Origin: Spirosoma rigui
Lineage (GTDB): Bacteria > Bacteroidota > Bacteroidia > Cytophagales > Spirosomataceae
Direction of reading: 5' to 3'
DNA length: 64,000 nucleotides
Assembly (NCBI RefSeq): GCF_002067135.1
Contig: NZ_CP020105.1
Location: 3,348,001 to 3,412,000, forward strand
The notes under the pieces were generated by a model, which was not told where the DNA came from, made no database searches, and saw only the letters and a program-made list of their open reading frames with translations. Numbering within the stretch: position 1 is the stretch's first letter; every line of letters begins with the position of its first letter. Below, piece after piece: positions 13,003 through 26,874 of the stretch. The translations under genes were made by a program, and so were the position numbers.

Positions 13003-13638
13003 ATGAAAAAGAACATGGAGTGTTTCTCGTCAAAGTCAACAGAAGAACGTATTCGGGAGGCCGCCAAGCGGGTATTCCTGGAGAAAGGATTCGATGGGGC
13101 TACGTCCAGAGACATTGCCGAAGCGGCCGGAATCAACATCGCCCTGACTAACTACTACTTCCGGAGCAAAGAGAAACTGTTCATCAACATTTTTGAGGAG
13201 ATGAGCAGCCTGTTTTTTGAAGGGATGATTGAGATCATGAATAAGTCGATCACACTGCGGGAGAAAATTGCCGAACTGATCGCGCACGATTTCCGGCTGA
13301 TGAAAGAAAATCCGTCCCTGTCGCTCTTTATCATGAATGAAATTCACCGTAATCCCGACCGGATGGTGAATGTACTGGGCTGTATGAAGCAAATTCAGCA
13401 TTCCATGTTTGAGGAGCAACTTCAGGAAGCTGTAAAACGGGGAGAAATCCGTCCCATCAGTGCCATGCACCTCATGCCCATTATGGTTGCCAACGTTCAG
13501 TTTCTGTTCATCAGCAAAGCAATGCATATGCGAATGTGGCACATGAGCGAAGCTGATTTTGACGGATTTGTCAGCAAGCATAAAGATCTCGTCACGGATT
13601 TGATTACGTCTTATTTGTTCGAATTTGAAAAGGTCTGA
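13003..13638 (+). CDS. TetR/AcrR-family transcriptional regulator of the efflux operon
   Basis: 211 aa. The N-terminal HTH (about residues 13-58: RIREAAKRVFLEKGFDGATSRDIAEAAGINIALTNYYFRSKEKLF in outline) is typical of TetR, with recognition helix around NIALTNYYF. The C-terminal ligand domain is helical and rich in methionine (HMRMWHMSEADF), with no further family clues. It is followed in the same direction by TolC, adaptor and RND genes, which strongly suggests local control of drug or lipid efflux. Palindromes with a shared TTTAAACA core lie both before this gene and before tolC, suggesting autoregulation plus repression of the pump. The start could be the ATG at 13003 or 13015. A small hairpin overlapping the stop codon may end its transcript. 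Confidence 0.9.
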   Translation: MKKNMECFSSKSTEERIREAAKRVFLEKGFDGATSRDIAEAAGINIALTNYYFRSKEKLFINIFEEMSSLFFEGMIEIMNKSITLREKIAELIAHDFRLMKENPSLSLFIMNEIHRNPDRMVNVLGCMKQIQHSMFEEQLQEAVKRGEIRPISAMHLMPIMVANVQFLFISKAMHMRMWHMSEADFDGFVSKHKDLVTDLITSYLFEFEKV

Positions 13639-13647
13639 CCTTTTTTT
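13628..13647 (+). terminator. Weak terminator overlapping the TetR stop codon
   Basis: AAAAGGT and ACCTTTT arms with a 3-base loop, followed by T, overlap the TGA at 13636-13638. A 7-bp A/T-rich stem is weak, so read-through into the efflux genes is possible. Confidence 0.45.
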
Positions 13648-13651
13648 GCCC

Positions 13652-13677
13652 ACGTTTTAAACAAATATTTAAAACGT
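13652..13677. promoter_or_regulatory. Candidate TetR operator before the efflux operon
   Basis: Perfect 10-bp arms ACGTTTTAAA and TTTAAAACGT with a 6-base spacer lie 44 bases before the tolC-type ATG. A further TGTTTAAAACA-like half site follows near 13691-13701. The core matches the palindrome upstream of the TetR gene. Confidence 0.6.
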
Positions 13678-13720
13678 ATAATTATTTATCCTGTTTAAAA
13701 CAAACCTTCCATTGTGTGCT

Positions 13721-15037
13721 ATGAAATTTTTACGATGGTATTACTACGCTATTCCGTTGCTGACGAACACGGTTGTCGGCGCGCAGGATGTCTCGCTTGA
13801 TCAGCTGATTGCCAAATCGTTAGTGGGTAATTACAGTGTCCAGGCCGCCCGGCTGGATGAATTGAGAACGGAGGCTCTTATTGCGGAGGTAAAAGCGAGC
13901 AGCCGTCCGCAGGTGAATCTAGCCGGTGATTACCGACGGTACCTGAAAATTCCGGGCCAGGTGGTTCCTGCAGCGGCATTCGGCGGACCCGAGGGCTCCT
14001 ACTCGGTGCTGGCTTTTGGACTGCCTTATAACCTGTCAACATCCGTTCAGGCATCACAGCCGATCTTCAACCAGTCGTTGCTGATTGCCACGAAAGCCGC
14101 TAAAGCCAGCCGGGACCTATCGCAGCTGCAAACCCAAAAGACCAAAGAAGATGTCGCGTACACCGTATCGGCTACGTATTACAACCTGCAGACAGTTGCC
14201 CAGCAGATCGCCTTTCTGCAAACCAACCTGACATCGACCGACCGGCTTATCCAGATCACCGACCTGCTTCGGCAAAACAAACTGGCAAAAGGCGTTGATG
14301 TCGACCGGCTGCAGTTGAGTAAAACAGCCTCACAAACCCAGATCGAATCACTGCAGGCCACGTACAATGAGTTATTGAATACGTTGAAATTCCTGACCGG
14401 CATGGCCCAGACGGATACCCTGCGGGTCCGGACCGCCATCGATGAGTCGGTGCCGGTAACGCCTGCCAACGAATACACCATTAACCGGACCGACCTGCAA
14501 CTGCTCGATCAGCAGAAAACCCTCAACGGGCTCGAACAGCGTAACATCAAAGCGGGCTTTACCCCAACCGTTTCGGCCTATGGTGTCGCCAACAGTTCGG
14601 TCTACGCTACCGGTGGGGATAATTCCTACATCAAAAATGTGCCGGGCTACTGGCTCGGTCTTCAGCTGAACTGGAGCGTATTTGACGGGCTGGCCCGGAA
14701 AGCCAGACTCGGCCAGAAACGTATCGACGAGCAGAAACTGGACGTCCAGGTTCGGCAAACCCGCGAATCCATTGCGCTCGACATTGCCAACGCCCGCAAT
14801 AAGTTTCTGGTGGAGCAGCAGAACCTTACCACCAACCAGGGACAGGTAGCACTGGCTGGAAAAGTGTACACCCAGACACAACTTCAATTTAAGGAAGGCA
14901 CCGTCGACATCACCGACGTTGTGCAGGCCGAAAACTCCCTCCGCGATGCACAAAACAACTACCTCAACACGCTGGTCAGTCTCCGGACGGCCGAACTGAA
15001 CTGGAAGAAAGCGACAGGCAGTCTCATCGGCCGGTAA
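13721..15037 (+). CDS. TolC-family outer-membrane efflux protein
   Basis: 438 aa from ATG 13721; an in-frame TTG nine bases earlier is unlikely. The signal peptide (MKFLRWYYYAIPLLTNTVVGAQD) ends near residue 20. Two repeated helical hairpin/beta units follow, with OEP-type features such as SLDQLIAKSLVGNYSVQAARLD at the start and FKEGTVDITDVVQAENSLRDAQNNYLNTLVSLRTAELNWKKATG (in outline) at the end. It would form the trimeric outer-membrane duct of the tripartite pump made with the next two genes. The spacing of 41 bases to the adaptor gene indicates an operon controlled by the upstream TetR. Confidence 0.94.
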   Translation: MKFLRWYYYAIPLLTNTVVGAQDVSLDQLIAKSLVGNYSVQAARLDELRTEALIAEVKASSRPQVNLAGDYRRYLKIPGQVVPAAAFGGPEGSYSVLAFGLPYNLSTSVQASQPIFNQSLLIATKAAKASRDLSQLQTQKTKEDVAYTVSATYYNLQTVAQQIAFLQTNLTSTDRLIQITDLLRQNKLAKGVDVDRLQLSKTASQTQIESLQATYNELLNTLKFLTGMAQTDTLRVRTAIDESVPVTPANEYTINRTDLQLLDQQKTLNGLEQRNIKAGFTPTVSAYGVANSSVYATGGDNSYIKNVPGYWLGLQLNWSVFDGLARKARLGQKRIDEQKLDVQVRQTRESIALDIANARNKFLVEQQNLTTNQGQVALAGKVYTQTQLQFKEGTVDITDVVQAENSLRDAQNNYLNTLVSLRTAELNWKKATGSLIGR

Positions 15038-15078
15038 ATCAACCATCCCTCTCATACAACCAACTCTTTACGAACGAT

Positions 15079-16128
15079 ATGAAACGTATTATCACCGTCT
15101 TTGCGCTGGTCGCAACGCTGGGTCTGACCGCCTGGACACTGGTCAACAACAAGAAAGTAGTAGAAGAAAAAGTATACAAGCCCAATCCAGACCAGCCAGT
15201 AGGGGTACGGACGGCCGTGGCCGGTCTGCGAAGCTTGTCGCAGGCGAATGAATTTCTGGGCTCTTTTTCACCCAACCGGGAAATCGAGATCCGCCCGCAG
15301 GCGGGTGGCCAGATTGTGTCGCTTCCCGTGGAGGAAGGGCAGACGATTGGGGCGGGGCGTCTGGTTGCCAAGCTCGACGATGAGCAGATCCGGTACCAGA
15401 TTGAAGCACTCCAGGTGACGCTGGAGGGGTACCAGAACGACCTGAAGCGGTTTGAAGTACTGGTGAAAGGCGATGCCACCCCCGCCATCAACCTGGAACG
15501 TACCGAACTGAGCATCCGCTCGACCCAGGCGCAACTCAAACAACTGCAAAAGCAACTGGCTAACACCACCGTAACAACGCCCTTTGCCGGGATTGTTACG
15601 GAGAAAATGGTCGAAAAAGGCTCGGTTGTTTCGGTAGGGGCACCCATTGCTAAGGTCACCGACATCTCGACCCTTAAACTGGTTGTGCAGGTACCCGAAA
15701 AAGCCATCAATCAGTTCCGAATCGGCCAGTCATTACCCATCCTGACCGAAGTCTACCCCGATGCCCGATTTATGGGGCGCGTATCGATGATTGCCGCCCA
15801 GGGCGATGCCGCCCATAACTACCCCGTTGAAATCACGGTTCAGAACTCGGGTAAAAATCCGCTACGGGCGGGTATGTACGGCTCCATTGCCAACACCCGT
15901 AGCGTAAAAGGCCAGACACTGGCCGTTCCCCGCCAAGCTATCGTTGGATCGGAAAAACAGCCGCAGATCTACGTCATCGAAGCGGGCAAAGCGGTCCTGA
16001 AATCGGTGGGTATCGGTGCCACTACCAACGAGTATTACGAAATAACCCGTGGATTAAAAGCGGGTGATCAGGTTGTGACCAGTGGTCAGATTAACCTACA
16101 GAACGGCACACCGGTAATCGCGCAATAG
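15079..16128 (+). CDS. RND efflux periplasmic adaptor (membrane fusion protein)
   Basis: 349 aa. An N-terminal hydrophobic anchor (about residues 4-22) lacks a lipobox cysteine. The biotinyl-lipoyl half IEIRPQAGGQIVSLPVEEGQ, a short helical hairpin (about 100-160), the second lipoyl half TTPFAGIVTEKMVEKGSVVSVGAP and beta-barrel/MP domains follow in the HlyD/AcrA order. C-terminal GLKAGDQVVTSGQINLQNG is typical. It links the RND permease to TolC. The helical hairpin is short, as in many Bacteroidota adaptors. Position between tolC and the RND gene supports one tripartite machine. Confidence 0.95.
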   Translation: MKRIITVFALVATLGLTAWTLVNNKKVVEEKVYKPNPDQPVGVRTAVAGLRSLSQANEFLGSFSPNREIEIRPQAGGQIVSLPVEEGQTIGAGRLVAKLDDEQIRYQIEALQVTLEGYQNDLKRFEVLVKGDATPAINLERTELSIRSTQAQLKQLQKQLANTTVTTPFAGIVTEKMVEKGSVVSVGAPIAKVTDISTLKLVVQVPEKAINQFRIGQSLPILTEVYPDARFMGRVSMIAAQGDAAHNYPVEITVQNSGKNPLRAGMYGSIANTRSVKGQTLAVPRQAIVGSEKQPQIYVIEAGKAVLKSVGIGATTNEYYEITRGLKAGDQVVTSGQINLQNGTPVIAQ

Positions 16129-16232
16129 AGCACCGGTTTTTATGATGGTTACGAATCGTCCTGATTGACTAACGGGTCGTAAGTCTTCTTGCCAATCATA
16201 AAAATCAGCGGTCTATCCAATCAACCAAGACT

Positions 16233-19200
16233 ATGAAATTTGTCGAAACGATCATCAAACGCCCGTCGCTCATTATCGTCTTATTTGCGATACTGACCAT
16301 CGGTGGTCTATTTTCCTATCGGTTGCTGAGTTACGAGTTGCTGCCGGAGTTTTCTACCCCGGTCATTACCATAACGACCATCTATCCGGGAGCGGCTCCA
16401 TCGGAGGTGGAAACGGAGATCAGTAAAAAGATTGAGGATGCGGTATCCGGTCTGGATAACCTCGACGATGTGAAATCCAACTCGTTCGAAAACGCATCGG
16501 TACTGGTCGTTCAGTTCAAGGCCGGAACGGACATCGATATGGCGCTGCAGGACGCCCAGCGCGAAATCGACAAGATGGTGAGCGATCTGCCCGACGATGC
16601 TGAACAACCGTCGCTGTCGAAAATATCGCCCAGCGATCAGCCCATCATGCAGCTGCTGGCTACGTCGACGCTGCCCAATGAAGTATTCTATCAACAGGTC
16701 GAAGATACCTACCTGCCGGTGCTGCAGCAGATCAAGGGCGTCGCCGACATTACGATGGTGGGGGGCGACAAGCGGGAAATCCGGATCAACGTTGATGACG
16801 ACAAGCTCAACTATTACGGACTATCCTTGCTTCAGGTATCGCAGGCCATTAACCAGGCCAACCTCGACTTCCCGACCGGAAAAGTAAAAAGTAGCAGCGA
16901 GAACATGACCCTGCGACTGGCGGGTAAATTTCAATCGCTGGCCGACATTCGCAAACTGGTCATTGCGACCCCACCCAACGGAAGCCCGATTCGGGTGAGT
17001 GACGTAGCAAAAGTGACCGACGGCCTGGCCGAAGCAACCAGTATAAGTCGTTTCAACGGGCAAAACGGGATTGGTCTGTTCATCAAGAAGCAGTCCGATG
17101 CCAACGCCGTCGACATCAGCGAGTCGGTGCAGGCCAAGCTGGCTCAGATCGAAAAAGAAAACGCGAAAGACAACGTACATTTCGCCATGGCCTACGACAG
17201 CAGTGTTTTCACGCTGGCCTCCGTCGAAGCCGTAACCCACGACCTGGTGCTGGCCGTTGGGCTGGTGGCCATCGTGATGCTCTTGTTCCTGCACAGTTTC
17301 CGCAATGCCTTCATTGTCATGATCTCGGTGCCAGCCTCGCTGATCTCGGCTTTCCTGTTCATGTATGTCATGGGGTATTCCCTCAACCTGATGACCCTGC
17401 TGGCCCTCTCACTGGTTATCGGTATTCTGGTCGATGACTCGATTGTGGTGCTCGAAAACATCCAGCGCCACCTCGAAATGGGTAAAGACCGCTGGCGCGC
17501 CACCCTCGACGGGGTGAGTGAAATTGGGTTTGCCGCCGTTGCCATTACGCTGGTTATTGTGGTTGTGTTCGTACCGATTACGTTCGTAAACTCGGTCATC
17601 GCCGATCTGTTGCGGCAGTTCTCGCTGACGGTGGCGTTCTCGACCCTGGTCAGTTTGCTGGTTAGTTTCACCCTTACCCCCTGGCTGACATCGAAACTGG
17701 CGCGGCTTGAACACCTGAATCCGAAAAATCCATTCCAGGCGTTCCTGCTCTGGTTCGAAAAAGGACTCACGTCTATCACTGGTGCCTACCATCGCAGCCT
17801 GGCCTGGGTGCTGGGGCATAAACTGGCTTTTACGGGCATACTGGTTGCGATCTTTGCTTTCACGGGCTGGGTCATGAGCCTAGGTATTATCGGGTCGGAG
17901 TTCGTTGCGCAGGGCGATCAGGGTAAGCTCCTGCTGACCATGAAGCTCGACAAAAGCGCGTCCCTGCAGCAGAATAACCTGACCGCCCGCAGCATCGAGA
18001 ATTACCTGCGCCGGAAACCCGAAGTGAAGACCATCTTCGCCAACGTAGGCGGAGCCAGTACCGGCATGAACAGCACCGGACAGGGCGAAACAAACCGGAC
18101 AGAGCTGACGGTTCAACTGGCCGATTCCCAGGAGCGGCCCGGTCATAAGCTGACCGAACAGTATATGATTGATATGCGGAAGGAGCTGGAAAAACAGTTT
18201 CCCGCCATTGAGTTCAACTCCGCAGTGGTCGGCATAGTCAATTCCGGCTCGGCACCAATCGAGATTTTCCTGAGCGGCAACAGCGTCGACGAAAATCTGG
18301 CCGCGGCCGAGGAACTGGCCAGCCGGATTCGGAGAACGCCCGGCGCCAACGACGTGAACGTATCGGTGGAGTCGGGTAATCCGGAAGTTCGGGTTGACAT
18401 TGACCGGGAGAAAATGGCGAAGCTGGGCATCAATATCGCCACGGTAGGGGGAACGCTGCAAAACGCCTTCGCCGGAAACGATGACTCCAAGTTCCGCGAC
18501 GGGGCGGAGGACTACGACATCCGCGTGATGCTCGACGCCTTCGACCGGAAGAATCCGGACGACGTGAAGACGATCAATTTCTTCAGCCCTGCCGCCAATC
18601 GGCCGGTGCGGCTGGCCGAATTTGCTACCGTTTCGCTGAGTAATGGCCCGTCGTTGCTGGAGCGGAAAAACCGTCGCTCATCCGTTACGGTAACGGCCAA
18701 TACGCTGGGCACCGGCTCCGGTACGCTGACGGCTGTTATTCAGGCTGACCTGGCCAAAAATCCGCTGCCCGCCGGCGTAACGGTAAGCTGGGGTGGCGAC
18801 GCCAAGAACCAGAGCGAAGGATTTGGCTCGCTGGGTATTGCCATGCTGGCCGGTCTGATGCTGGTGTATTTCATCATGGTGCTGCTCTACGACAGCTTCG
18901 TGTATCCGTTCGTCGTTCTGTTCTCGGTACCGGTAGCGGTTGTGGGGGCTTTGCTGGCGCTGGCGCTGACAGCGTCCAACATCGGCATCTTTGCCATGCT
19001 GGGTATGCTGATGCTCATTGGTCTGGTGGTAAAAAACGCCATTCTGATCGTGGACTTTGCCAATCAGCAGAAAGCAGAAGGCGTACCGTTCCGGCAGGCT
19101 ATTCTGCACGCGGGCAAAGAACGGCTGCGGCCTATCCTGATGACAACTATCGCCATGGTGATCGGGATGATTCCCATTGCTACGGCCAGCGGGGCCGGGG

Positions 19201-19373
19201 CCGAATGGAAAAACTCACTCGCCTGGGTACTCATTGGCGGGCTGAGCAGCTCGATGGTCCTGACGATCTACCTTGTACCGATGATGTACTACCTCGTCGA
19301 CCGCACGCAGGAATGGGTTGGCAACCGCTTCCGGAAACCGAAAACGGCCAAGCCCGTACCCCAACCGGTTTGA
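16233..19373 (+). CDS. RND-family efflux permease (HAE1 type)
   Basis: 1046 aa, full length. The N-terminus MKFVETIIKRPSLIIVLFAIL and YPGAAPSEVETEIS are family signatures. Twelve membrane segments are arranged 1+5 and 1+5 around two large periplasmic loops. TM4 holds the proton-relay pair in VIGILVDDSIVVLENI. FANQQKAEGVPFRQAILHAGKERLRPILMTT (in outline) is the usual C-terminal motif. It exports hydrophobic or amphiphilic compounds by proton antiport; the substrate cannot be told. It ends 88 bases before the acyl carrier protein gene, with a 14-bp hairpin in between that probably ends this operon. Confidence 0.96.
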   Translation: MKFVETIIKRPSLIIVLFAILTIGGLFSYRLLSYELLPEFSTPVITITTIYPGAAPSEVETEISKKIEDAVSGLDNLDDVKSNSFENASVLVVQFKAGTDIDMALQDAQREIDKMVSDLPDDAEQPSLSKISPSDQPIMQLLATSTLPNEVFYQQVEDTYLPVLQQIKGVADITMVGGDKREIRINVDDDKLNYYGLSLLQVSQAINQANLDFPTGKVKSSSENMTLRLAGKFQSLADIRKLVIATPPNGSPIRVSDVAKVTDGLAEATSISRFNGQNGIGLFIKKQSDANAVDISESVQAKLAQIEKENAKDNVHFAMAYDSSVFTLASVEAVTHDLVLAVGLVAIVMLLFLHSFRNAFIVMISVPASLISAFLFMYVMGYSLNLMTLLALSLVIGILVDDSIVVLENIQRHLEMGKDRWRATLDGVSEIGFAAVAITLVIVVVFVPITFVNSVIADLLRQFSLTVAFSTLVSLLVSFTLTPWLTSKLARLEHLNPKNPFQAFLLWFEKGLTSITGAYHRSLAWVLGHKLAFTGILVAIFAFTGWVMSLGIIGSEFVAQGDQGKLLLTMKLDKSASLQQNNLTARSIENYLRRKPEVKTIFANVGGASTGMNSTGQGETNRTELTVQLADSQERPGHKLTEQYMIDMRKELEKQFPAIEFNSAVVGIVNSGSAPIEIFLSGNSVDENLAAAEELASRIRRTPGANDVNVSVESGNPEVRVDIDREKMAKLGINIATVGGTLQNAFAGNDDSKFRDGAEDYDIRVMLDAFDRKNPDDVKTINFFSPAANRPVRLAEFATVSLSNGPSLLERKNRRSSVTVTANTLGTGSGTLTAVIQADLAKNPLPAGVTVSWGGDAKNQSEGFGSLGIAMLAGLMLVYFIMVLLYDSFVYPFVVLFSVPVAVVGALLALALTASNIGIFAMLGMLMLIGLVVKNAILIVDFANQQKAEGVPFRQAILHAGKERLRPILMTTIAMVIGMIPIATASGAGAEWKNSLAWVLIGGLSSSMVLTIYLVPMMYYLVDRTQEWVGNRFRKPKTAKPVPQPV

Positions 19374-19392
19374 TGCAACAAAATGTGCTGAT

Positions 19393-19427
19393 CTGTGGGG
19401 GTTCTACACAATATAGAACCCCCATAG
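19393..19427 (+). terminator. Strong hairpin between the RND gene and the inositol-lipid cluster
   Basis: An 11-bp perfect stem (TGGGGGTTCTA / TAGAACCCCCA), extendable to 14 bp with one G-T pair, has a 7-base loop. No T-tract follows, so it may be a rho-independent-like stop, a processing site or an attenuator. Confidence 0.55.
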
Positions 19428-19461
19428 ACCGACAACCTCAACGGACTAAACTTCCTCTCTC

Positions 19462-19707
19462 ATGACTCTGGAACAAATCAACAGTCGCCTGCAGGCTATC
19501 CTTGTCAACATTGGCGTCAGCTTCAACAACTTAACCGAACAGGCCCATTTCAGCCGGGATCTGGGGCTCGACTCGCTGGACGTAACGGACCTCCTCGTTC
19601 AGGTCGAGGATACGTTCAGCATCCGCATCCCCGACGAGGTCTGGTGGAAATTAAAGACCGTCGGGCAGCTGACGAACTACCTTATTGATGAGATGGTGTT
19701 CGACTAG
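19462..19707 (+). CDS. Acyl carrier protein
   Basis: 81 aa. The four-helix ACP pattern is clear, with the phosphopantetheine site GLDSLD (Ser38). It would carry an acyl chain as a thioester. It is not beside fab genes, so it is probably a specialised ACP rather than the housekeeping AcpP. The tail EVWWKLKTVGQLTNYLIDEM is more aromatic than in AcpP. It begins the run that continues, 53 bases on, with the inositol-phosphate synthase gene. Specialised ACPs are known in bacterial sphingolipid gene sets, where they feed serine palmitoyltransferase, so a lipid role here is plausible but only inferred. Confidence 0.93.
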   Translation: MTLEQINSRLQAILVNIGVSFNNLTEQAHFSRDLGLDSLDVTDLLVQVEDTFSIRIPDEVWWKLKTVGQLTNYLIDEMVFD

Positions 19708-19760
19708 CCATTCCGGCAACCGCTCTACAAACGCATTTTGACCAATTAATCTGCTTTTTA

Positions 19761-21110
19761 ATGAATAGTCCTTCCTCACTACTGCCGGCTTCCGGCCGAT
19801 TGGGCGTACTGATGCCCGGTCTGGGTGCCGTTGCTACTACCTTTGTTGCCGGTGTGCTGGCGGCCCGTCAGGGTCTTGCCTATCCGGCGGGGTCGCTTAC
19901 CCAGGCATCCCATATCCAGTTGGGTACCGGCACCGGTAGCCGCTCCCCACTCATTCGTGATTTTGTGCCCCTGGCCGACCTGAACGATCTGGTCTTTGGG
20001 GGCTGGGATATTTTTCCCGACAACCTCTACGATGCGGCCCGGCAGGCTAACGTACTGGAACGGCCCCTCCTGGATCAGTTGCAGCCGGAACTGGCGGCTA
20101 TCCGCCCGATGAAGGCAGTTTTTGATCCCCACTACGTCCGGAACCTGTCTGGAAGCTGGGTCAAAGAGACAACCAACAAGTGGGAGCAGGTGCAGGATCT
20201 GATGGCCGACATCGAGCATTTTAGTCTGGTTAACCAGTGCCAGCGTCTGGTCATGGTCTGGTGCGCGTCGACCGAGCGATACCACGAGCCGCAGCCAGTA
20301 CACCAATCACTGGCGGCTTTTGAGCGGGGACTGCGGGAGAGTGATCCGGCCATTGCCCCATCCATGCTCTACGCGTATGCTGCTCTGAAAATGCGGGTGC
20401 CTTTTGCGATGGGTGCGCCCAACCTGTGCGTGGACATCCCCGCTCTCGAAGAACTGGCCCGGCTCACGGGCACTCCTCTGGGCGGTAAAGATTTCAAAAC
20501 GGGGCAAACGCTTATGAAAACCATCATTGCACCGGGGTTGCGGGCGCGGGCACTGGGCGTTAACGGGTGGTTCTCGACCAACATCCTGGGTAACCGCGAC
20601 GGGCTGGTACTCGACGCACCGGAAAATTTCCAGACCAAGGAAGTCTCCAAAGGGCGGGTGCTGGAGGGTATTCTGGATGGTGAGATGAGCCCTGAACTCT
20701 GGGGCGACATACACCATAAAGTAAGAATAGAATATTATCCGCCCCACGGTGACAACAAAGAAGGCTGGGACAACATTGACATTTTCGGGTGGCTGGGCTA
20801 CAAAATGCAGATCAAAGTCAACTTCCTCTGCCGAGATTCGATTCTGGCGGCCCCCGTAGTGCTTGATTTGGCCCTTTTTCTCGACCTGGCCCAGCGGGCG
20901 GGTTTGTCCGGCGTTCAGGAGTGGCTGGGTTTCTACTGGAAATCGCCCCAAACGGTAGCCGGCTCGCTCCCGGTTCATGACCTGTTTCAGCAACTAAATA
21001 AGCTGGAGAATATGTTACGGTATTTAATGGGGGAAGAACCCATGACAAACCTCGACATACGCTATAGCGAGGCAGAACCCGTGGAAGTCGATAGTGAAAC
21101 ACATTCATAA
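19761..21110 (+). CDS. ino1: myo-Inositol-1-phosphate synthase
   Basis: 449 aa. It converts glucose 6-phosphate to 1D-myo-inositol 3-phosphate with NAD. The Rossmann start GRLGVLMPGLGAVATTFVAGV, the strongly conserved NGWFSTNILGNRDG block, the lysine region GKDFKTGQTLMKT and the late NVDIFGWLGYKMQIKVNFLCRDSILAAP-like segment (GWDNIDIFGWLGYKMQIKV) identify the family. It is the first enzyme of inositol-lipid synthesis and heads the block of lipid genes. It overlaps the next gene by 17 bases. The Bacteroides thetaiotaomicron inositol-lipid cluster likewise groups this enzyme with a CDP-alcohol transferase and phosphatases. Confidence 0.95.
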   Translation: MNSPSSLLPASGRLGVLMPGLGAVATTFVAGVLAARQGLAYPAGSLTQASHIQLGTGTGSRSPLIRDFVPLADLNDLVFGGWDIFPDNLYDAARQANVLERPLLDQLQPELAAIRPMKAVFDPHYVRNLSGSWVKETTNKWEQVQDLMADIEHFSLVNQCQRLVMVWCASTERYHEPQPVHQSLAAFERGLRESDPAIAPSMLYAYAALKMRVPFAMGAPNLCVDIPALEELARLTGTPLGGKDFKTGQTLMKTIIAPGLRARALGVNGWFSTNILGNRDGLVLDAPENFQTKEVSKGRVLEGILDGEMSPELWGDIHHKVRIEYYPPHGDNKEGWDNIDIFGWLGYKMQIKVNFLCRDSILAAPVVLDLALFLDLAQRAGLSGVQEWLGFYWKSPQTVAGSLPVHDLFQQLNKLENMLRYLMGEEPMTNLDIRYSEAEPVEVDSETHS

Positions 21111-21567
21111 ATTTTTTGCCAGTGGATTGGGGCTGGGCTACATACCGGTAGGAGCCGGAACCGTAGCGTCGGTGGTGACAATTGTGGTCGTCTACCTGCT
21201 GGAAACGGCGGCCGTCGCCCCGGGCCAGCCGCCCTCCGCGGGGCTTTGGTTACTCATCATCGGTCTGGTAACATTTGGGGGTGTCTGGTCGGCATCCGTT
21301 GTTGAAGCCGACTGGGGTGAGGATAGTAACCGGGTTGTTATTGACGAGGTGGCCGGGATGCTCATTGCCATCTGGGCCCTACCGCACACACCCGTCTGGC
21401 TGCTGGCCGGGCTGGTGTTGTTCCGGTTTCTGGATATCCGTAAGCCCGGACCCATCCGGCGACTGGAACAGCTGCCGGGTGGGTGGGGAGTAATGTTCGA
21501 CGATGTGGGCGCTGGTGTAGTCGCTAATGGTGTGCTGCAGGGCGTCTGGTTTTTTACGAAGGGATAA
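21094..21567 (+). CDS. PgpA-like phosphatase, probably acting on phosphatidylinositol phosphate
   Basis: 157 aa with four membrane segments. FFASGLGLGYIPVGAGTVASV and VVIDEVAGMLIAIW are PgpA motifs, and FRFLDIRKPGPIRRLEQLPGGWGVMFDDVGAGV-type residues complete the active site (DD near residue 135). PgpA removes phosphate from phosphatidylglycerophosphate. Placed between inositol-phosphate synthase (overlap of 17 bases) and a CDP-alcohol transferase, this copy more likely dephosphorylates phosphatidylinositol phosphate, as described for the analogous Bacteroides cluster. A housekeeping PgpA cannot be excluded. The ATG at 21094 is accepted because the overlap is small and the motif begins at once. 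Confidence 0.88.
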   Translation: MKHIHKFFASGLGLGYIPVGAGTVASVVTIVVVYLLETAAVAPGQPPSAGLWLLIIGLVTFGGVWSASVVEADWGEDSNRVVIDEVAGMLIAIWALPHTPVWLLAGLVLFRFLDIRKPGPIRRLEQLPGGWGVMFDDVGAGVVANGVLQGVWFFTKG

Positions 21568-21579
21568 TTTACGCTGCCG

Positions 21580-21960
21580 ATGTTTTCTGGGTTACCTGTT
21601 TTTGTTCGGGCGCTGCTAGGCTCATTGCTGGCTACGGGGTCGGACTATAGTGTATCGTTTGGGTTGCACCACTGGTTTCGGGTATCGGGCGTGGTGGCAA
21701 CGGGCCTGGGTGCCTCAGTGGGTGCAGTAGTGGGATTCGTCCTTAGCCGTTACTGGGTTTTTCCGGGTCAGCGTCGGTCCCGGCCCCAGCAGGCCATGCG
21801 CTACGGCATGGTGAGTTTACTGGGTGGAACGGGTAACATGGCGGGCATGCAGCTGGCCGAACTCGCCCACCTGCCGTTTAGTCCGGCCCGGGTTGGCGTT
21901 GGCCTGCTTGTGTACCTATTTATATCGTACCCCATCAACCGGCGGTACGTCTTTTCATAA
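21580..21960 (+). CDS. GtrA-like membrane protein
   Basis: 126 aa with four hydrophobic segments. The pattern FVRALLGSLLATGSDYSVSFGLHHWF, then VGAVVGFVLSRYWVF, a basic loop and a final NRRYVFS, is characteristic of GtrA/DPMS-type proteins, which are thought to flip or help transfer polyprenyl-linked sugars. It starts 12 bases after the PgpA-like gene. Within this cluster it might move a lipid-linked intermediate, possibly a mannosyl donor or the inositol lipid itself; that is inference. Confidence 0.85.
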   Translation: MFSGLPVFVRALLGSLLATGSDYSVSFGLHHWFRVSGVVATGLGASVGAVVGFVLSRYWVFPGQRRSRPQQAMRYGMVSLLGGTGNMAGMQLAELAHLPFSPARVGVGLLVYLFISYPINRRYVFS

Positions 21961-21964
21961 ACGA

Positions 21965-24520
21965 ATGCCTACTCATTTACTTACTCGACTATTTATTGGA
22001 GGACTGGTTAGCTGGTTAATGCTGGGGAATACCGCCTGGGCCCAGCAGTCGGTTCGGGGACGCGTCGTTGACGCCAAGTCCAGCGAACCGGTGCCGTTTG
22101 CGACGGTCGTTGTCCCAGGCACCCAGATCGGCACCAACACGGATGCCAGCGGGGCGTTCTCGTTGACGTTACCCGGTGTTACCGACACCCTGCGTTTGCA
22201 GGTATCACAGGTGGGTTATCAGACGCTGAGCAAACCCTTTCGGGGCGAACTGGAGGTGGTCTTTCGGCTGGTGCCCGATGCCAAGCGACTTCAGGAAGTA
22301 TACGTGCGTGGCAAACGCCAGCGTTACCGTAACAAAGACAACCCGGCTGTTGCGCTGATCCGGCGCGTCATCGACGCGAAGGATAAAAACCGGCGGTCGG
22401 GGGTGTCGACCTATCAATACGAGAAGTACGAGAAAATCCGACTCGACATCAGCAACGTAAACGAAAAATTCCGGCAGGGGCGGGCCTTCAAAAACTTTCA
22501 GTTCATCTTCGATTACCTCGACTCCTCCAACGTACTGGGAACGGTATCGCTCCCGCTGTATCTGAAAGAAAGCCTGTCCGATGTCTATTTCCGGCAGACG
22601 CCCCGCGCCTACAAAGAGTACCTCAAGGCTGAAAAGAAAGTAGGGCTGGAACGGTATTTCGACTCCAATGGTATTGGCGCGTACCTGAATCGCCTGTACG
22701 AGGAAATCGATATCTACGCCGACAATATCAGCCTGCTGGCTAATCAGTTTCCAAGTCCCATCTCGCCCCTGGCCCCTACACTGTACCGGTTTGTGCTGGG
22801 CGATACGGTTGTTTATGACAGTGTACGCTGCGTAAAGCTGGGGTTTGCTCCGCGTAACCGCGCCGACATGGCTTTCGAAGGAACGATGTGGGTAGCGCTG
22901 GATTCGAGCTATGCCGTGCGGAAAGTGAGCATGGGCGTTCCCAAAGGCATAAACCTCAACCTCGTAACGGCCGTTCAGATCGATCAGGAGTTCAGTCGCG
23001 TGGCGAGTGACCGGCTCATGCTCACCCGCGATGAGGTAGCTATCAATTTTAGCTTGGTTAAAGATGAGGACCGGATCGGCGTGCTGGGAACCCGAACGGG
23101 AACGTACCGCAACTACCAGATCGACGCGCCCATCGATGATAAGCTGTTCAAACCTGTGCAGCGGGTCGTTGTCCTGCCCGAAGCTGCCCAGCAAACTGAC
23201 TCGTTCTGGCAGGAGCGCCGGCACACGGTATTGAGCAAGAGCGAACGGGGTGTCTACACCATGACCGACAGTATTCAGCAGGTACCGCTGTTCAAGCGGG
23301 CTGCCCGTATTGCAACGGCCCTGCTCTTCGGCTACGTCGACCTGAACAAGTTCGAAATCGGGCCGGTCAACTCGTTCTATAGTTTTAACCCCGTCGAAGG
23401 GTTCCGACTGCGGGTGGGTGGCCGGTCGATGGCGCGGCTCAACCCCCGCCTGTATGCCGAAACGTACGGAGCTTATGGCTTCAAGGACCACCAGTGGAAA
23501 TACTTCGGAGCGTTGACCTACTCGCTCAACGGCCGGTCGATCTATGATTTTCCCAACAACTTTGTGCGCGTTTCCTACCAGTACGATACCCGGATTCCAG
23601 GACAGGAACTGCAGTTTATCCAGGAAGATAACGTACTCTTATCGATCAAGCGCGGGTCAAACGACCGTTGGACCTACAACAACGTATTCCGGGTCGATTA
23701 CCGGCAGGAATACGCCAGCGGGTTTAGTTACGACCTGGGATTCAAAACCCTCCGGCAGACCGCAGCCGGTAGTCTGCGGTTTACCTCGCCCGCTCACCCC
23801 GACCTGCCCGGTTCGATCCCGTCCACCGAATTCAGCCTCAGCCTTCGCTACGCGCCGAACGAGAAATTCTTTCAGGGAAAAAACTACCGGATACCCATCG
23901 TCAACCAGTATCCGATCATGCAGCTGCGGTACACGGCGGGTGTCAGCGGCCTGTTTGGTGGGCAGTACGATTTTCAGAGCATTACAGGCCGGTTCAATAA
24001 ACGATTCTACGTGTCGCCGGTTGGCTTCACCGACTTTACGGTCGAAGGGGGGCGGCTGTTCGGGACCGTACCGTACCCGCTGCTGATCATTCACCGGGCC
24101 AACCAGTCGTACTCCTACCAGCTCGAATCCTATAATTTGATGAATTACCTGGAGTTTGTCAGCGACCGTTACGGTGCTTTGTTCGTCGACCATTATTTCA
24201 ATGGATTTATTTTTAACAAGCTACCGTTGATCAAAAAACTGAAATTCCGGGAGGTCATTACGATGAAAGCGCTGTGGGGTGGTTTGGGGGCTAATAACCG
24301 GCCATCATCCGCCGATGCCAACGATATACAGTTTCTGACAACAGCCGACGGCCGGCCAGCTACCTACGCACTGGGTACCAAACCGTATATGGAAGTTAGC
24401 GTTGGCGTGTCGAATATTTTCAAGATTTTCCGACTGGACCTGGTTCGTCGGTTAACGTACCTCGATCAACCAAACGTTAGTGCGTATGGTATTCGGGGGC
24501 GCTTTAAATTTGATTTCTGA
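21965..24520 (+). CDS. DUF5686 outer-membrane protein with carboxypeptidase-regulatory-like domain
   Basis: 851 aa from ATG 21965, four bases after the GtrA-like gene. The frame extends further upstream inside that gene, but the signal peptide (LLTRLFIGGLVSWLMLGNTAWAQQ) starts here. Residues about 27-105 form a CarboxypepD_reg-like Ig fold (VRGRVVDAKSSEPVPFATVVVPGT...). The middle matches DUF5686, and the C-terminal 350 residues alternate polar and aromatic residues as in a beta-barrel, ending in F (RGRFKFDF). It resembles TonB-dependent receptors in architecture but lacks an evident plug. Location in the lipid cluster suggests outer-membrane handling of the lipid product, but the family is uncharacterised. 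Confidence 0.88.
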   Translation: MPTHLLTRLFIGGLVSWLMLGNTAWAQQSVRGRVVDAKSSEPVPFATVVVPGTQIGTNTDASGAFSLTLPGVTDTLRLQVSQVGYQTLSKPFRGELEVVFRLVPDAKRLQEVYVRGKRQRYRNKDNPAVALIRRVIDAKDKNRRSGVSTYQYEKYEKIRLDISNVNEKFRQGRAFKNFQFIFDYLDSSNVLGTVSLPLYLKESLSDVYFRQTPRAYKEYLKAEKKVGLERYFDSNGIGAYLNRLYEEIDIYADNISLLANQFPSPISPLAPTLYRFVLGDTVVYDSVRCVKLGFAPRNRADMAFEGTMWVALDSSYAVRKVSMGVPKGINLNLVTAVQIDQEFSRVASDRLMLTRDEVAINFSLVKDEDRIGVLGTRTGTYRNYQIDAPIDDKLFKPVQRVVVLPEAAQQTDSFWQERRHTVLSKSERGVYTMTDSIQQVPLFKRAARIATALLFGYVDLNKFEIGPVNSFYSFNPVEGFRLRVGGRSMARLNPRLYAETYGAYGFKDHQWKYFGALTYSLNGRSIYDFPNNFVRVSYQYDTRIPGQELQFIQEDNVLLSIKRGSNDRWTYNNVFRVDYRQEYASGFSYDLGFKTLRQTAAGSLRFTSPAHPDLPGSIPSTEFSLSLRYAPNEKFFQGKNYRIPIVNQYPIMQLRYTAGVSGLFGGQYDFQSITGRFNKRFYVSPVGFTDFTVEGGRLFGTVPYPLLIIHRANQSYSYQLESYNLMNYLEFVSDRYGALFVDHYFNGFIFNKLPLIKKLKFREVITMKALWGGLGANNRPSSADANDIQFLTTADGRPATYALGTKPYMEVSVGVSNIFKIFRLDLVRRLTYLDQPNVSAYGIRGRFKFDF

Positions 24521-24531
24521 TCATCAGCCCT

Positions 24532-25221
24532 ATGAAAGAGCAGGCTCAACAGTTGATTTATACGATGGTTCACCCGCTGATTCGGGGTATGATGACCATC
24601 GGCATGACCCCGAATCTGGTTACGACCATTGGCTTTGCCATCAATATTGTGGCGGCCGGGGTCTTCATCATCGGGGGCGAGTTAGGAGTACGGGGCGATT
24701 TCGAGTACGTAGGCTGGGGGGGCGGACTGATTTTGCTGGCCGGCCTGTTCGATATGCTCGACGGGCGACTGGCCCGCGTTAGTGGCCAGTCGAGTACCTA
24801 CGGTGCCCTGTTCGATTCGGTGCTGGATCGTTACAGTGAGCTGGTCATGTTTCTGGGGATTGGCTGGTATCTCATTGCCCACGATTATCTGCTCAGTTCA
24901 TTCATGGCGTTTTTGGCCCTGGTAGGCTCTATGATGGTGAGCTACGTCCGGGCGCGGGCCGAAGGGTTAGGCCTGTCCTGTTCCGTAGGCCTTATGCAAC
25001 GCCCTGAGCGGATTGTACTGGTGGGAGGGTCGGCCCTGATCTGCGGGTTGGTAGCACCCATGTTTCCACCCAACCTGGTTGTGATGGAAGGCGTTTTTGC
25101 CCAACCGTTCCGGGTAGATGCCAGTATTGTCCTTTCACTGCCTTTATCGGTTGTTGCCGTACTGGCCAACTACACCGCCATTGTCCGGCTTAATCACTGC
25201 CGTCGGCTTTTAGAACAATAA
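24532..25221 (+). CDS. CDP-alcohol phosphatidyltransferase (putative phosphatidylinositol-phosphate synthase)
   Basis: 229 aa, six membrane segments. The complete catalytic signature D-x2-D-G-x2-A-R-x8-G-x3-D-x3-D is present (D74, D77, G78, A81-R82, G91, D95, D99). It transfers a phosphatidyl group from CDP-diacylglycerol to an alcohol. Together with inositol-phosphate synthase and a PgpA-like phosphatase, the expected acceptor is inositol phosphate, giving phosphatidylinositol phosphate. It stands 11 bases after the DUF5686 gene and 3 bases before the DUF4833 gene. Phosphatidylglycerophosphate or phosphatidylserine synthesis would be the alternatives by family alone. Confidence 0.9.
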   Translation: MKEQAQQLIYTMVHPLIRGMMTIGMTPNLVTTIGFAINIVAAGVFIIGGELGVRGDFEYVGWGGGLILLAGLFDMLDGRLARVSGQSSTYGALFDSVLDRYSELVMFLGIGWYLIAHDYLLSSFMAFLALVGSMMVSYVRARAEGLGLSCSVGLMQRPERIVLVGGSALICGLVAPMFPPNLVVMEGVFAQPFRVDASIVLSLPLSVVAVLANYTAIVRLNHCRRLLEQ

Positions 25222-25224
25222 CCT

Positions 25225-25845
25225 ATGCACTACTGGTTGCTGCTGGTGGGTTGGGCTAGTCTCTTCCCGTTTGGTATACACACGACCGACACGCGACTGT
25301 CAACAACGTTCGGGTCGTCTTCTCATAAGGTTATGGCACGAACTACGTCGCACGGGGATACCGACACCGACGAGGGATGGCCTGTACCCCCCGCAGGCCC
25401 CAATCGGCTGTTTTACATCCAGCGCAGTTCGAACGCCAATACCATTGTCTACGACGCGCAACTACGCAAGAACGGGCAGTTCGATCCGCAGGAACCGGTT
25501 TCGGTTTACTGGCTTCGGCTGGCCGAACAGGGACAGCGACAGGAGCTTTCCTGGATTCAGCGGACCCTGGCCTATGGCATTGCCGATCCCGAACGGAAAG
25601 GAACCAGTGGCCTGGTGACGAGCGTGGTCAGTTACCGGAAACGAAAGCTGAACCTCCTTGTCGATCCGAGTGGGAAGCCCATGGCCCAGATCCAGATCAA
25701 CGGTCGGCTGGCGCAGCTCCATCATGTGTTCGTGCAGATACGGGACGGGCAGGGACCCATGGGCATCAGCAAGATTGCCCATGTCGACATTTTTGGGCAG
25801 GACCCACAAACAGGAAAACCAGTTCATGAACGATTTGTCCCCTAA
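25225..25845 (+). CDS. DUF4833 protein, putatively exported
   Basis: 206 aa. An N-terminal hydrophobic stretch (about residues 3-18) looks like a signal peptide or anchor. From about residue 58 the sequence GPNRLFYIQRSSNANTIVYDAQLRKNGQF, PVSVYWLRLAEQG and VSYRKRKLNLLVDPSGKPMAQIQINGRLAQLHHVFVQI (in outline) match DUF4833. No catalytic residues are evident; the predicted fold is mostly beta. It overlaps the PAP2 gene by 20 bases and follows the CDP-alcohol transferase by 3, so it is firmly inside the inositol-lipid operon. Function unknown; lipid binding or assistance of the PAP2 enzyme are possible guesses. Confidence 0.87.
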   Translation: MHYWLLLVGWASLFPFGIHTTDTRLSTTFGSSSHKVMARTTSHGDTDTDEGWPVPPAGPNRLFYIQRSSNANTIVYDAQLRKNGQFDPQEPVSVYWLRLAEQGQRQELSWIQRTLAYGIADPERKGTSGLVTSVVSYRKRKLNLLVDPSGKPMAQIQINGRLAQLHHVFVQIRDGQGPMGISKIAHVDIFGQDPQTGKPVHERFVP

Positions 25846-26782
25846 TCCCGCCCCGCTGGTTGGCGCACCCAGGCCATCGGTTGGCTCGCGGTTGCTGCGT
25901 ACGGTCGTTGCTACGGTCTTGTACTTCGCCTGGTTTGCTGGACTGGTAGGACTTCGGCCTGAGCACAGTGTCCTGTACGGGATCATGCTGTTCCTCTACT
26001 GGAGTTCGCGCCGGGGACAGCGGCTATTGCTGGCGCTGAGCCCGCTCATTGCCTACTGGATCATTTATGACTCCCTCCGGATCATGCCCAACTATACCGT
26101 AGGAGAGGTGCACATTGCCAGTTTGTACAATGCCGAAAAACAGCTGTTTGGTATTGGCGAGGGTGCCCTCCGGCAAACGCCCAACGAGTGGTTTGCTACC
26201 CATTCCTACCAGTTCATCGACGTGCTCAGCGGGTTCTGGTATCTAAGCTGGGTGCCTGTTCCCCTGCTGGTGGCTATCTATTGGTTTCTGACCAACAAGG
26301 AGCGCTACGCGCGATTCGTGGGGGCGTTCGTGTTCGTCAATATCCTCGGCTTCATCGTGTACTACCTATACCCGGCAGCTCCGCCCTGGTACGTAGCAAT
26401 GCATGGCTTTAACCTGGTTCCGCAAACACTGGGCAGTACGGCCGGTCTCAGTCGATTCGATGCCTGGCTGGGAGTAGAAGTATTCAAGGGAATCTACGCC
26501 AAAAACTCTAATGTATTTGCGGCTATGCCGTCGCTCCATTCGGCTTATCCGGTCGTAGTGGCCTACTACGTTATTCGGGCGGGGCGGTGGCCGGTGCGGA
26601 TCGGGGCGGTCCTGTTCGCGGTCGGTATCTGGCTGGCGGCTGTTTACACAAGTCATCATTACATCCTGGATGTGCTGGCCGGTATTACCTGCGCCCTGGT
26701 TGGGGTAACGCTGTGGGAAGGACTGATTACGGGCCGCGTTGGCCGGCCCTGGTTTCGGCGGTTCGTCACCGCAATTCAGTAA
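25826..26782 (+). CDS. PAP2-superfamily enzyme of the AUR1/inositol phosphorylceramide synthase type
   Basis: 318 aa from ATG 25826; the frame is open earlier but those residues lie within DUF4833. Six membrane segments are predicted. The motifs MPSLHSAYP and SHHYILDVLAG hold the two histidines and the aspartate of the LPP/AUR1 active site, while the KxxxxxxRP motif of classical PAP2 enzymes is absent, as in yeast AUR1. The likely reaction moves phosphoinositol from phosphatidylinositol (phosphate) to a ceramide. This agrees with sphingolipid-making Bacteroidota, and with the upstream genes that supply inositol lipid. The long cluster ends here at a strong bidirectional terminator. Confidence 0.9.
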   Translation: MNDLSPNPAPLVGAPRPSVGSRLLRTVVATVLYFAWFAGLVGLRPEHSVLYGIMLFLYWSSRRGQRLLLALSPLIAYWIIYDSLRIMPNYTVGEVHIASLYNAEKQLFGIGEGALRQTPNEWFATHSYQFIDVLSGFWYLSWVPVPLLVAIYWFLTNKERYARFVGAFVFVNILGFIVYYLYPAAPPWYVAMHGFNLVPQTLGSTAGLSRFDAWLGVEVFKGIYAKNSNVFAAMPSLHSAYPVVVAYYVIRAGRWPVRIGAVLFAVGIWLAAVYTSHHYILDVLAGITCALVGVTLWEGLITGRVGRPWFRRFVTAIQ

Positions 26783-26840: not shown

Positions 26841-26874
26841 AAAAAGGAGCGACCCGGTCGGGTCGCTCCTTTTT
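26841..26874 (+). terminator. Bidirectional terminator closing the inositol-lipid cluster
   Basis: Perfect 15-bp arms AAAAAGGAGCGACCC / GGGTCGCTCCTTTTT with a GGTC loop have T-tracts on both strands. It lies between the convergent PAP2 and lipoprotein genes. Confidence 0.92.

Follow-up and report, generated by a model that had tools for sequence, protein, structure and literature searches.

An eight-gene operon in the window (the whole 64,000-nucleotide stretch of Spirosoma rigui DNA that was analysed) probably directs inositol-lipid assembly and envelope export, with an acceptor lipid that in this organism is probably not ceramide. As the original prediction described, eight consecutive plus-strand genes run from 19462 to 26782 with spacings that never exceed 53 bases, overlaps at two junctions and a 15-bp hairpin at the end (Table 1). 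The spacings are 53 bases between the genes for the acyl carrier protein (ACP) and myo-inositol-phosphate synthase (MIPS), 12 between PgpA and GtrA, 4 between GtrA and DUF5686, 11 between DUF5686 and the CDP-alcohol phosphatidyltransferase (CDPPT) and 3 between CDPPT and DUF4833; MIPS and PgpA overlap by 17 bases, and DUF4833 and PAP2 by 20, the PAP2 start being 25826. Seven of the eight genes start with ATG and PgpA with GTG. All eight families exceeded the curated Pfam cut-offs (PF00550, PF07994/PF01658, PF04608, PF04138, PF18939 with PF13715, PF01066, PF16117 and PF14378). The terminator hairpin is flanked on both sides by A-/T-runs and can thus serve both convergent strands.

Table 1. Features of the operon and of the genes upstream of it (window coordinates).
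Feature	Position	Strand	Evidence
TetR-type regulator	13003..13638	+	PF00440 8.9e-14
TolC-type outer-membrane efflux protein (adjacent pump, membership uncertain)	13712..15037	+	PF02321 4.6e-45
HlyD-type membrane-fusion protein (adjacent pump, membership uncertain)	15079..16128	+	PF16576 1.3e-20
AcrB-type RND transporter (adjacent pump, membership uncertain)	16233..19373	+	PF00873 2.5e-272
Hairpin without T-run, AcrB/ACP gap	19392..19428	+	15 pairs, -26.6 kcal/mol, z -6.2
ACP, divergent	19462..19707	+	PF00550 2.1e-11
MIPS	19761..21110	+	PF07994 1.1e-97, PF01658 8.3e-32
PgpA-type phosphatase, BT1525-like PIP phosphatase	21094..21567	+	PF04608 1.4e-38
GtrA-type small membrane protein, BT1524-like, proposed PI flippase	21580..21960	+	PF04138 3.1e-15
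DUF5686: signal helix, carboxypeptidase-regulatory domain, further domain in N-terminal half, predicted Omp85-type beta-barrel	21965..24520	+	PF18939 1.7e-57
CDPPT, BT1523-like PIP synthase	24532..25221	+	PF01066 2.2e-15
DUF4833: N-terminal hydrophobic segment, all-beta domain	25225..25845	+	PF16117 2.6e-38
PAP2/AUR1-type transferase, BT1522-like	25826..26782	+	PF14378 4.5e-29
15-bp hairpin terminator, two-way	26841..26874	.	-27.0 kcal/mol, z -6.6, equalled by 0/200 shuffles

The core of the operon (MIPS, PgpA, GtrA, the CDP-alcohol transferase and PAP2) corresponds to the published inositol-lipid set BT1522-BT1526 of Bacteroides thetaiotaomicron, in agreement with the original prediction. There, according to the accessible text of PMC9246714 and PMC8791184, MIPS, a PgpA-type PIP phosphatase, GtrA, a CDP-alcohol PIP synthase and an AUR1-type PAP2 enzyme form a single operon. 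In the window all five genes lie on one strand with DUF5686 and DUF4833 interposed, and the locus differs from the published one in having DUF5686 within the operon together with DUF4833, ACP and an upstream TetR and RND pump; its genome differs in that no serine palmitoyltransferase (SPT) was found. DUF4833 was present in none of 14 control genomes, Bacteroides ihuae included. MIPS is single-copy in the genome (one match). CDPPT scored 318 bits against NCBIfam NF052561 (PIPSynBT1523), under the equivalog cut-off of 350, and PAP2 scored 312 bits against NF052609 (phosphoinositol dihydroceramide synthase; cut-off 480), placing it in the same family but below equivalog level. The CDP-alcohol transferase motif was present in the window's CDPPT and in 70/70 CDPPT matches; the window's PAP2 has the catalytic sites PSLH and HYILD, and PAP2 motifs were found in 68/68 matches.

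The window's GtrA-type protein contains the GtrA transmembrane domain (PF04138). Lipid flipping by this protein, as originally suggested, would be in line with a BT1524 mutant with decreased IPC and increased PI in total membranes (PMC8791184), although TLC of a BT1524 knock-out was reported as unchanged (PMC9246714). The suggestion of no earlier assignment does not hold for GtrA, the subject of these two knock-out papers, or for a carboxypeptidase-regulatory neighbour, BT_1527, listed in the accessible text of PMC9246714 close to both kinds of cluster.

Linkage to inositol genes in other genomes recurred for GtrA, DUF5686 and DUF4833, as the original prediction required of cluster members. 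A draw across the phylum gave 42 MIPS loci from 41 genomes, six of them PAP2-type. GtrA was present at 5/6 PAP2-type loci and 0/36 other MIPS loci (one-sided Fisher test, 7e-6), DUF5686 at 4/6 and 0/36 (1.3e-4), DUF4833 at 3/6 and 0/36 (1.7e-3) and ACP at 1/6 and 0/36 (0.14), the genomes being related rather than independent and the window being among the six. Most counts accepted DUF5686 only at a profile coverage of at least 45%; without this filter it was found at 5/6 PAP2-type loci and at two of the 36 others, both partial profile matches. A draw within the family gave 14 MIPS loci, of which nine were PAP2-type (window included), with GtrA, DUF5686 and DUF4833 at eight each.

A further set was drawn through DUF4833, its named loci being the best 80 of 257, some of which overlap with other mapped loci. 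CDPPT and PAP2 shared a strand at 51 of these 80, and among the 51 (drawn through DUF4833; best 80 of 257) DUF5686 was present at 50, MIPS at 47, PgpA and GtrA at 46 each, and SPT, an N-acyltransferase and a reductase at 36 each. These counts are a recount from raw hits; earlier gene picking, which loses some overlapping ORFs (e.g. GtrA of L031), gave 45 for GtrA and 35 for the reductase. The short loci L001-L009 were left out of the maps, and L025 yielded no DUF4833 ORF. Several clusters have gaps: among Spirosomaceae, L167 lacks DUF4833, and L029 lacks GtrA and has DUF5686 on the opposite strand; elsewhere in the maps, L047 lacks DUF4833 and a GtrA match, and L046 and L049 lack both DUF4833 and a well-covered DUF5686, indicating that DUF4833, DUF5686 and GtrA are not strictly needed.

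Three loci of the DUF4833-drawn set (best 80 of 257) read SPT-acyltransferase-reductase-DUF5686-DUF4833 with no inositol gene within the available stretch, and DUF5686 and DUF4833 look like a sphingolipid-envelope module. At four further loci (L010, L035, L037 and L044) the pair accompanies headgroup genes of the other type, an NTP transferase and HAD; a PfkB kinase is present there and MIPS absent from the stretch. These are Spirosomaceae relatives of the alternative cluster of Bacteroides vulgatus and Prevotella (NTP transferase, CDP-alcohol transferase, HAD; accessible text of PMC9246714), which shares headgroup transfer by a CDP-alcohol transferase with the window's operon but differs in its chemistry, without PgpA or PAP2.

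For DUF5686 the predicted structure is an outer-membrane barrel of the Omp85 type. Foldseek searches with its AlphaFold model (mean pLDDT 78, pTM 0.61) returned SAM-complex, BamA and TamA chains with a best E of 2.9e-8; 128 PDB chains matched at E<=0.001, and the 50 shown were nearly all SAM, BamA/BAM or TamA. The TM-score by target length was 0.67 on the TamA barrel 8us4, and low (<=0.30 in the rows shown) for the whole protein. While the predicted barrel is like that of the Omp85 superfamily (BamA, TamA, SAM complex), DUF5686 differs in having a carboxypeptidase-regulatory and another domain ahead of it, and no POTRA was identified in this whole-protein comparison. Pfam gave no Omp85 match, listing at E<=0.01 just DUF5686 and carboxypeptidase-regulatory/CILP domains, and a BFVD fold search was uninformative. 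The outer-membrane delivery originally suggested for this protein gains from the predicted barrel.

DUF4833 is predicted to be extracytoplasmic. Among separate DUF4833 proteins, 90/91 (81 distinct) have a hydrophobic segment ahead of the domain and none has one inside it. At 20 of the 51 CDPPT and PAP2 loci (DUF4833-drawn, best 80 of 257) the domain and the CDP-transferase form a fusion; single-ORF fusions numbered 24 (23 distinct), with an inter-domain hydrophobic segment over threshold in 23/24. The model was confident across residues 51-206 (pLDDT 82-97), and Foldseek found no fold match in the PDB (best E 0.011, TM 0.18) that would point to a function. The literature searched yielded no mention of DUF4833 or DUF5686 by name.

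Phosphoinositol ceramide, the product originally proposed, is not supported by this genome (one contig, 99.81% complete), in which no SPT was detected. Three proteins only matched SPT at E<=0.001: a SulA-like protein, a BioF-like protein and a 61-bit match. The SulA-like protein, encoded outside the operon at C1:4803846-4805147, scored 588 bits against PDB 7u7h and 230 against the SPT 3a2b. In the accessible text of PMC9304779 a lysine in place of alanine separates SulA from SPT, and this lysine is present here (RSQTYAKALPMP, as against RSL(M/I)FSAS in the five cluster SPTs printed for that site), such that the protein matches the sulfonolipid enzyme SulA (PDB 7u7h; cysteate acyltransferase 28eh; PMC9304779) both by sequence and by the lysine. 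With SulA and no detectable SPT, phosphoinositol ceramide lacks support in this organism, and PAP2 probably uses a lipid other than ceramide as its acceptor. SPT at E<=1e-120 was also absent from 12/12 PAP2-type Spirosomaceae genomes found; within the family the comparison (0/12 PAP2-type versus 26/109, p 0.07) is a weak association, and the point rests on absence rather than enrichment.

These absences stand against a plain B. thetaiotaomicron-type cluster making PI and phosphoinositol ceramide, for which the ceramide would have to come from an SPT that escaped recognition or from an external source. We consider such a cluster unlikely, even though the only NCBIfam match of PAP2 is phosphoinositol dihydroceramide synthase and SPT was above cut-off in 5/5 non-Spirosomaceae PAP2-type MIPS genomes. 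Where the operon also has SPT, the N-acyltransferase and the reductase (36/51 loci; DUF4833-drawn, best 80 of 257), the acceptor is most simply ceramide. The N-acyltransferase (GNAT) was rejected as a ceramide marker, being too broad (237/247 genomes); GNAT relatives in the window's genome scored 190 and 180 bits, versus 535-622 for the five best of the 247-genome list.

The lack of SPT would also suit PI alone as the real product; PAP2 would then act in PI turnover or as a lipid phosphatase, and the extra genes would serve general envelope upkeep. The PAP2 proteins of the window and its L026 partner share a long branch of 1.16 changes per column, such as a change of role would leave, in a tree that left out duplicates (L066-L069, L139), L098, L099 and rows below 90% profile coverage. 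However, the PAP2 catalytic motifs are retained, and PAP2 is present at 9/9 family MIPS loci with CDPPT and PgpA, making PI alone a distinctly improbable end point.

The favoured reading is inositol-lipid assembly and envelope export with an acceptor that is probably not ceramide. In the cytosol MIPS would produce inositol phosphate, the CDP-alcohol transferase would combine it with CDP-DAG into PI-phosphate, and PgpA would dephosphorylate this to PI; the three steps are established for B. thetaiotaomicron and proposed here by homology. GtrA may aid PI to the periplasmic face, as the B. thetaiotaomicron mutant supports, where the AUR1-type PAP2 would transfer phosphoinositol to the acceptor lipid. 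At this face DUF4833, whose all-beta domain is predicted to be exported and in many relatives is joined to the CDP-transferase, may be an assembly or hand-over partner, and DUF5686, with its Omp85-type barrel and N-terminal domains, could deliver the product to, or insert it in, the outer membrane. To our knowledge, the route of bacterial sphingolipids and inositol lipids across the periplasm is an open question in Bacteroidota. Very tentatively, DUF5686, DUF4833 and GtrA might form an undescribed inner-to-outer-membrane route for headgroup-bearing sphingolipids or sphingolipid-like inositol lipids of this phylum, with the AUR1-type enzyme re-aimed at a non-ceramide acceptor, such as a SulA-derived sulfonolipid hydroxyl, in SPT-less Spirosoma, Arcicella and Flectobacillus. 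In several bacterial families of the phylum, inositol/sphingolipid genes are accompanied by two unnamed protein families, of which one occurs in fusion with the headgroup enzyme and the other is a predicted Omp85-type barrel. Given the missing SPT, the annotation 'IPC synthase homologue' in Spirosomaceae should not imply inositol ceramide production.

ACP, by contrast with GtrA, DUF5686 and DUF4833, did not hold its place in the cluster. Its profile matched the window and Spirosoma L026 alone among 166 mapped loci (74/81 residues identical), and conserved membership was ruled out at 2/166 loci, both Spirosoma; the window's protein fell below the listed NCBIfam ACP cut-offs (e.g. TIGR00517, 58.3 versus 70.45 bits). 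Overall, the B. thetaiotaomicron-type core and the belonging of the other three genes found support, whereas ACP membership, the phosphoinositol ceramide product and the novelty of GtrA did not.

The same-strand run extends upstream of ACP to take in TetR, TolC, HlyD and AcrB, the last of which ends 88 bases before ACP. It is doubtful that this pump is a component of the lipid system and acts as its exporter. L026 and L028 have an orthologous pump at the same place ahead of their clusters (AcrB 93% and 80% identical), and a co-directional TetR lies within 9 kb of MIPS at 8/9 PAP2-type Spirosomaceae loci, but AcrB was not found within 9 kb in 6/9 family clusters, the gap between AcrB and ACP holds a strong hairpin, and the genome has 16 near-full-length RND matches. 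The pump beside DUF4833 at two Runella alternative clusters is just 27% identical to the window's and was counted as a different one, and an RND pump as a general partner was rejected.

Inositol specificity of DUF4833 was ruled out, as the family also sits with SPT genes alone and MIPS is often absent (from 13/16 DUF4833-bearing genomes in the phylum draw and 66/80 in the family draw). At 22 of the 80 named loci (best 80 of 257) neither inositol nor SPT/reductase genes were nearby. Other contexts were too mixed to assign a function, with hydrogenase, sigma-factor, catalase-like and glycosyltransferase neighbours; two fatty-acid hydroxylases, a dehydrogenase, an acyltransferase and a GDPD were also seen near DUF4833.

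The operon was recovered as originally predicted in both position and layout, by open reading frame calling, Pfam searches and exact spacing (maximum gap 53 bases, overlaps of 17 and 20).

Coordinates of the eight operon genes in the window
Gene	Position	Strand	Start	Basis
ACP	19462-19707	+		ORF, Pfam
MIPS	19761-21110	+		ORF, Pfam
PgpA	21094-21567	+	GTG	ORF, Pfam
GtrA	21580-21960	+		ORF, Pfam
DUF5686	21965-24520	+		ORF, Pfam
CDP-alcohol transferase	24532-25221	+		ORF, Pfam
DUF4833	25225-25845	+		ORF, Pfam
PAP2	25826-26782	+		ORF, Pfam

A strong 15-bp hairpin lies downstream of PAP2 (26841-26874), and MIPS is single-copy in the whole genome, a single contig of 5.83 Mb that is 99.81% complete. 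The + strand run begins upstream of ACP with genes for TetR, TolC, HlyD and AcrB (13003-19373). The 88 bases between the AcrB end and the ACP start hold a strong 15-pair hairpin without a T-run (19392-19428, -26.6 kcal/mol), possibly an attenuator, a processing site or a TetR operator; in the other Spirosoma locus with ACP (L026) the sequence of this gap differs. The convergent neighbour of the operon (26893-27927, - strand) encodes 344 aa with a lipoprotein-like start, and a Pfam search with its product gave no match.

A draw on MIPS across the phylum found it in 41 of 247 genomes (42 loci, every one mapped), and six loci, including the window's, carried an AUR1-type PAP2 (PAP2-type). These six held PgpA (5), GtrA (5), DUF5686 (4, counted at ≥45% profile coverage), DUF4833 (3) and ACP (1), all of which were absent co-directionally within 9 kb from the remaining 36; with the coverage filter off, DUF5686 was found at 5/6 PAP2-type versus 2/36 other loci. 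Within the Spirosomaceae, MIPS was present in 14 of 121 genomes (14 loci), and the nine PAP2-type loci held PgpA (9), GtrA, DUF5686, DUF4833 and TetR (8 each), AcrB (3), ACP (2) and serine palmitoyltransferase (SPT; 0).

Loci were also drawn from named genomes with DUF4833, which gave 257 confirmed loci; of these the 80 best were analysed, and CDP-transferase and PAP2 lay on the same strand in 51. Comparison of gene order across the draws upheld the predicted linkage of GtrA (46 of these 51), DUF5686 (50) and DUF4833 to the inositol genes, whereas that of ACP did not stand (0/51). MIPS (47), PgpA (46), SPT, N-acyltransferase and reductase (36 each) and fatty-acid hydroxylase (30) were also present, all counts being lower bounds because contig ends cut some loci. 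The set spans, among others, Chitinophaga, Niastella, Mucilaginibacter, Rufibacter, Pontibacter, Flectobacillus, Arcicella and Saprospiraceae, and the most frequent order was SPT, N-acyltransferase, reductase, MIPS, PgpA, GtrA, DUF5686, CDP-transferase, DUF4833, (hydroxylase), PAP2. One SPT (locus L017) exceeds the curated model NF047600 (670 vs 640 bits), and the two genes following SPT would be 'ceramide synthase' and 'ceramide reductase', judging from their Pfam families and the Spt/CerR/CerS set named in PMC9304779. A contig labelled Beijerinckiaceae (L127) carries a Bacteroidota-type cluster including DUF4833 and is probably mis-binned.

DUF5686 and DUF4833 follow sphingolipid genes also without inositol genes. 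Three loci (L084, L087, L088) read TetR, SPT, acyltransferase, reductase, DUF5686, DUF4833, with no inositol gene in the stretch mapped; since L087 and L084 end soon after DUF4833 (170 bases and ~1.2 kb), only L088 reveals more of the downstream side. At four further loci (L010, L035, L037, L044; L010 and L044 from the same genus) the pair lies beside an alternative headgroup set of Spirosomaceae (NTP transferase, CDP-transferase, LPG-synthase-like, HAD, PfkB kinase), with SPT in 4/4 no more than 1 kb from an edge of the stretch mapped, which itself has no MIPS; the PfkB kinase may phosphorylate scavenged inositol. Six loci (L013, L015, L016, L018, L019, L022) share a conserved set of SDR, PhyH-type dioxygenase, CDP-transferase, GtrA and DUF4833. 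All lack MIPS, PgpA and PAP2, and this set probably makes another headgroup lipid. Finally, three Spirosoma genomes (L031-L033) carry PgpA, GtrA, DUF5686, a fused CDP-transferase–DUF4833 and PAP2 with no MIPS match genome-wide. In L033 a PfkB kinase lies 1.6 kb upstream on the opposite strand.

Such fusions were found as one ORF in 24 cases (23 distinct): 20 of the 51 named blocks plus L029 and L031-L033. A hydrophobic segment between the two domains is kept in 23/24, the exception, L033, being just under threshold (1.55 vs 1.6), and the 91 unfused DUF4833 proteins (81 distinct) have one ahead of the domain in all cases but one, so that DUF4833 is most simply read as extracytoplasmic in both forms. 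Its predicted structure (40 sequences) is all-beta over residues 51-206 (block pLDDT 82-97); a fold search of the PDB returned no chain at E ≤ 0.001 (best 0.011, TM 0.18), and a sequence search of the PDB no match at E ≤ 10.

The DUF5686 model (35 sequences, mean column identity 55%; pLDDT 78, pTM 0.61) comprises a signal helix, a carboxypeptidase-regulatory domain (~28-102), another domain and, starting at ~479, a barrel of long strands; the C-terminal residue of the protein is Phe851. Foldseek matched it to 128 PDB chains at E ≤ 0.001, nearly all of the 50 listed being SAM complex, BamA/BAM or TamA (TM 0.67 to TamA barrel 8us4 by target length). Sequence matches to the PDB (SusC-type chains) were limited to the carboxypeptidase-regulatory part. 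The predicted fold suggests an Omp85-like function.

The acceptor lipid in the window's organism was addressed through PAP2 and SPT. PAP2 retains its catalytic motifs, and of the NCBIfam models it matches phosphoinositol dihydroceramide synthase alone (312 bits, under the cut-off of 480). An SPT query matched three places in the genome at E ≤ 0.001: a SulA, a BioF-like gene and a 61-bit match. The best, SulA, scored 588 bits to PDB 7u7h, which we take to be Alistipes SulA, 573 to 28eh, named cysteate-C-fatty acyltransferase, and 230 to SPT 3a2b. It also has the lysine given as the distinguishing mark of SulA in PMC9304779, and this gene suggests that the organism makes sulfonolipids. This SulA-type cysteate acyl-ACP transferase gene (L178; G000 C1:4803846-4805147, in the window's genome) lies near ADH, SDR, acyltransferase and DAG-kinase-like genes.

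SulA-like genes occur in 120/121 family genomes and NF047600 passed in 26/121. It passed in 0/12 of the family genomes found with a PAP2-type block (nine with MIPS plus G250, G284 and G334 without; the 121 may include further MIPS-less ones), 11 being searched to E 1e-120, above which a very divergent SPT may lie, and the window's to E 0.001. Outside the family SPT passed in 5/5 PAP2-type MIPS genomes, in a check covering 23 of the 40 other MIPS genomes and eight more. In the PAP2 tree, several deep forks of which are weak, the proteins of the window and of L026 group together on a long branch, and an Arcicella/Flectobacillus clade is separate from that of L029 and L031-L033, indicating that the SPT-less blocks are not a single lineage.

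The core of the operon is already known: in B. thetaiotaomicron the roles of MIPS, phosphatidylinositol-phosphate (PIP) synthase, PIP phosphatase and PI-DHC synthase have been demonstrated (PMC9246714). For the GtrA mutant (BT1524), inositol-phosphoceramide was lowered and phosphatidylinositol (PI) raised in total membranes (PMC8791184), a result that suits a PI flippase, but TLC showed no change (PMC9246714). DUF4833 would be a periplasmic partner in the transfer step and DUF5686 the outer-membrane end of the system. ACP was present in just two Spirosoma genomes; a possible role is to provide the acceptor with acyl chains, as SulA uses acyl-ACP (PMC9304779). In the literature searched, which mostly excludes subscription journals, the terms 'DUF4833' and 'DUF5686' were absent, and no relevant title was found on Bacteroidetes sphingolipid transport, on inositol lipids or sulfonolipids in Spirosoma, or on Omp85 joined with carboxypeptidase-regulatory domains in Bacteroidetes. 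BT_1527, a neighbour with a carboxypeptidase-regulatory domain, lies close to both kinds of cluster, as described in PMC9246714.
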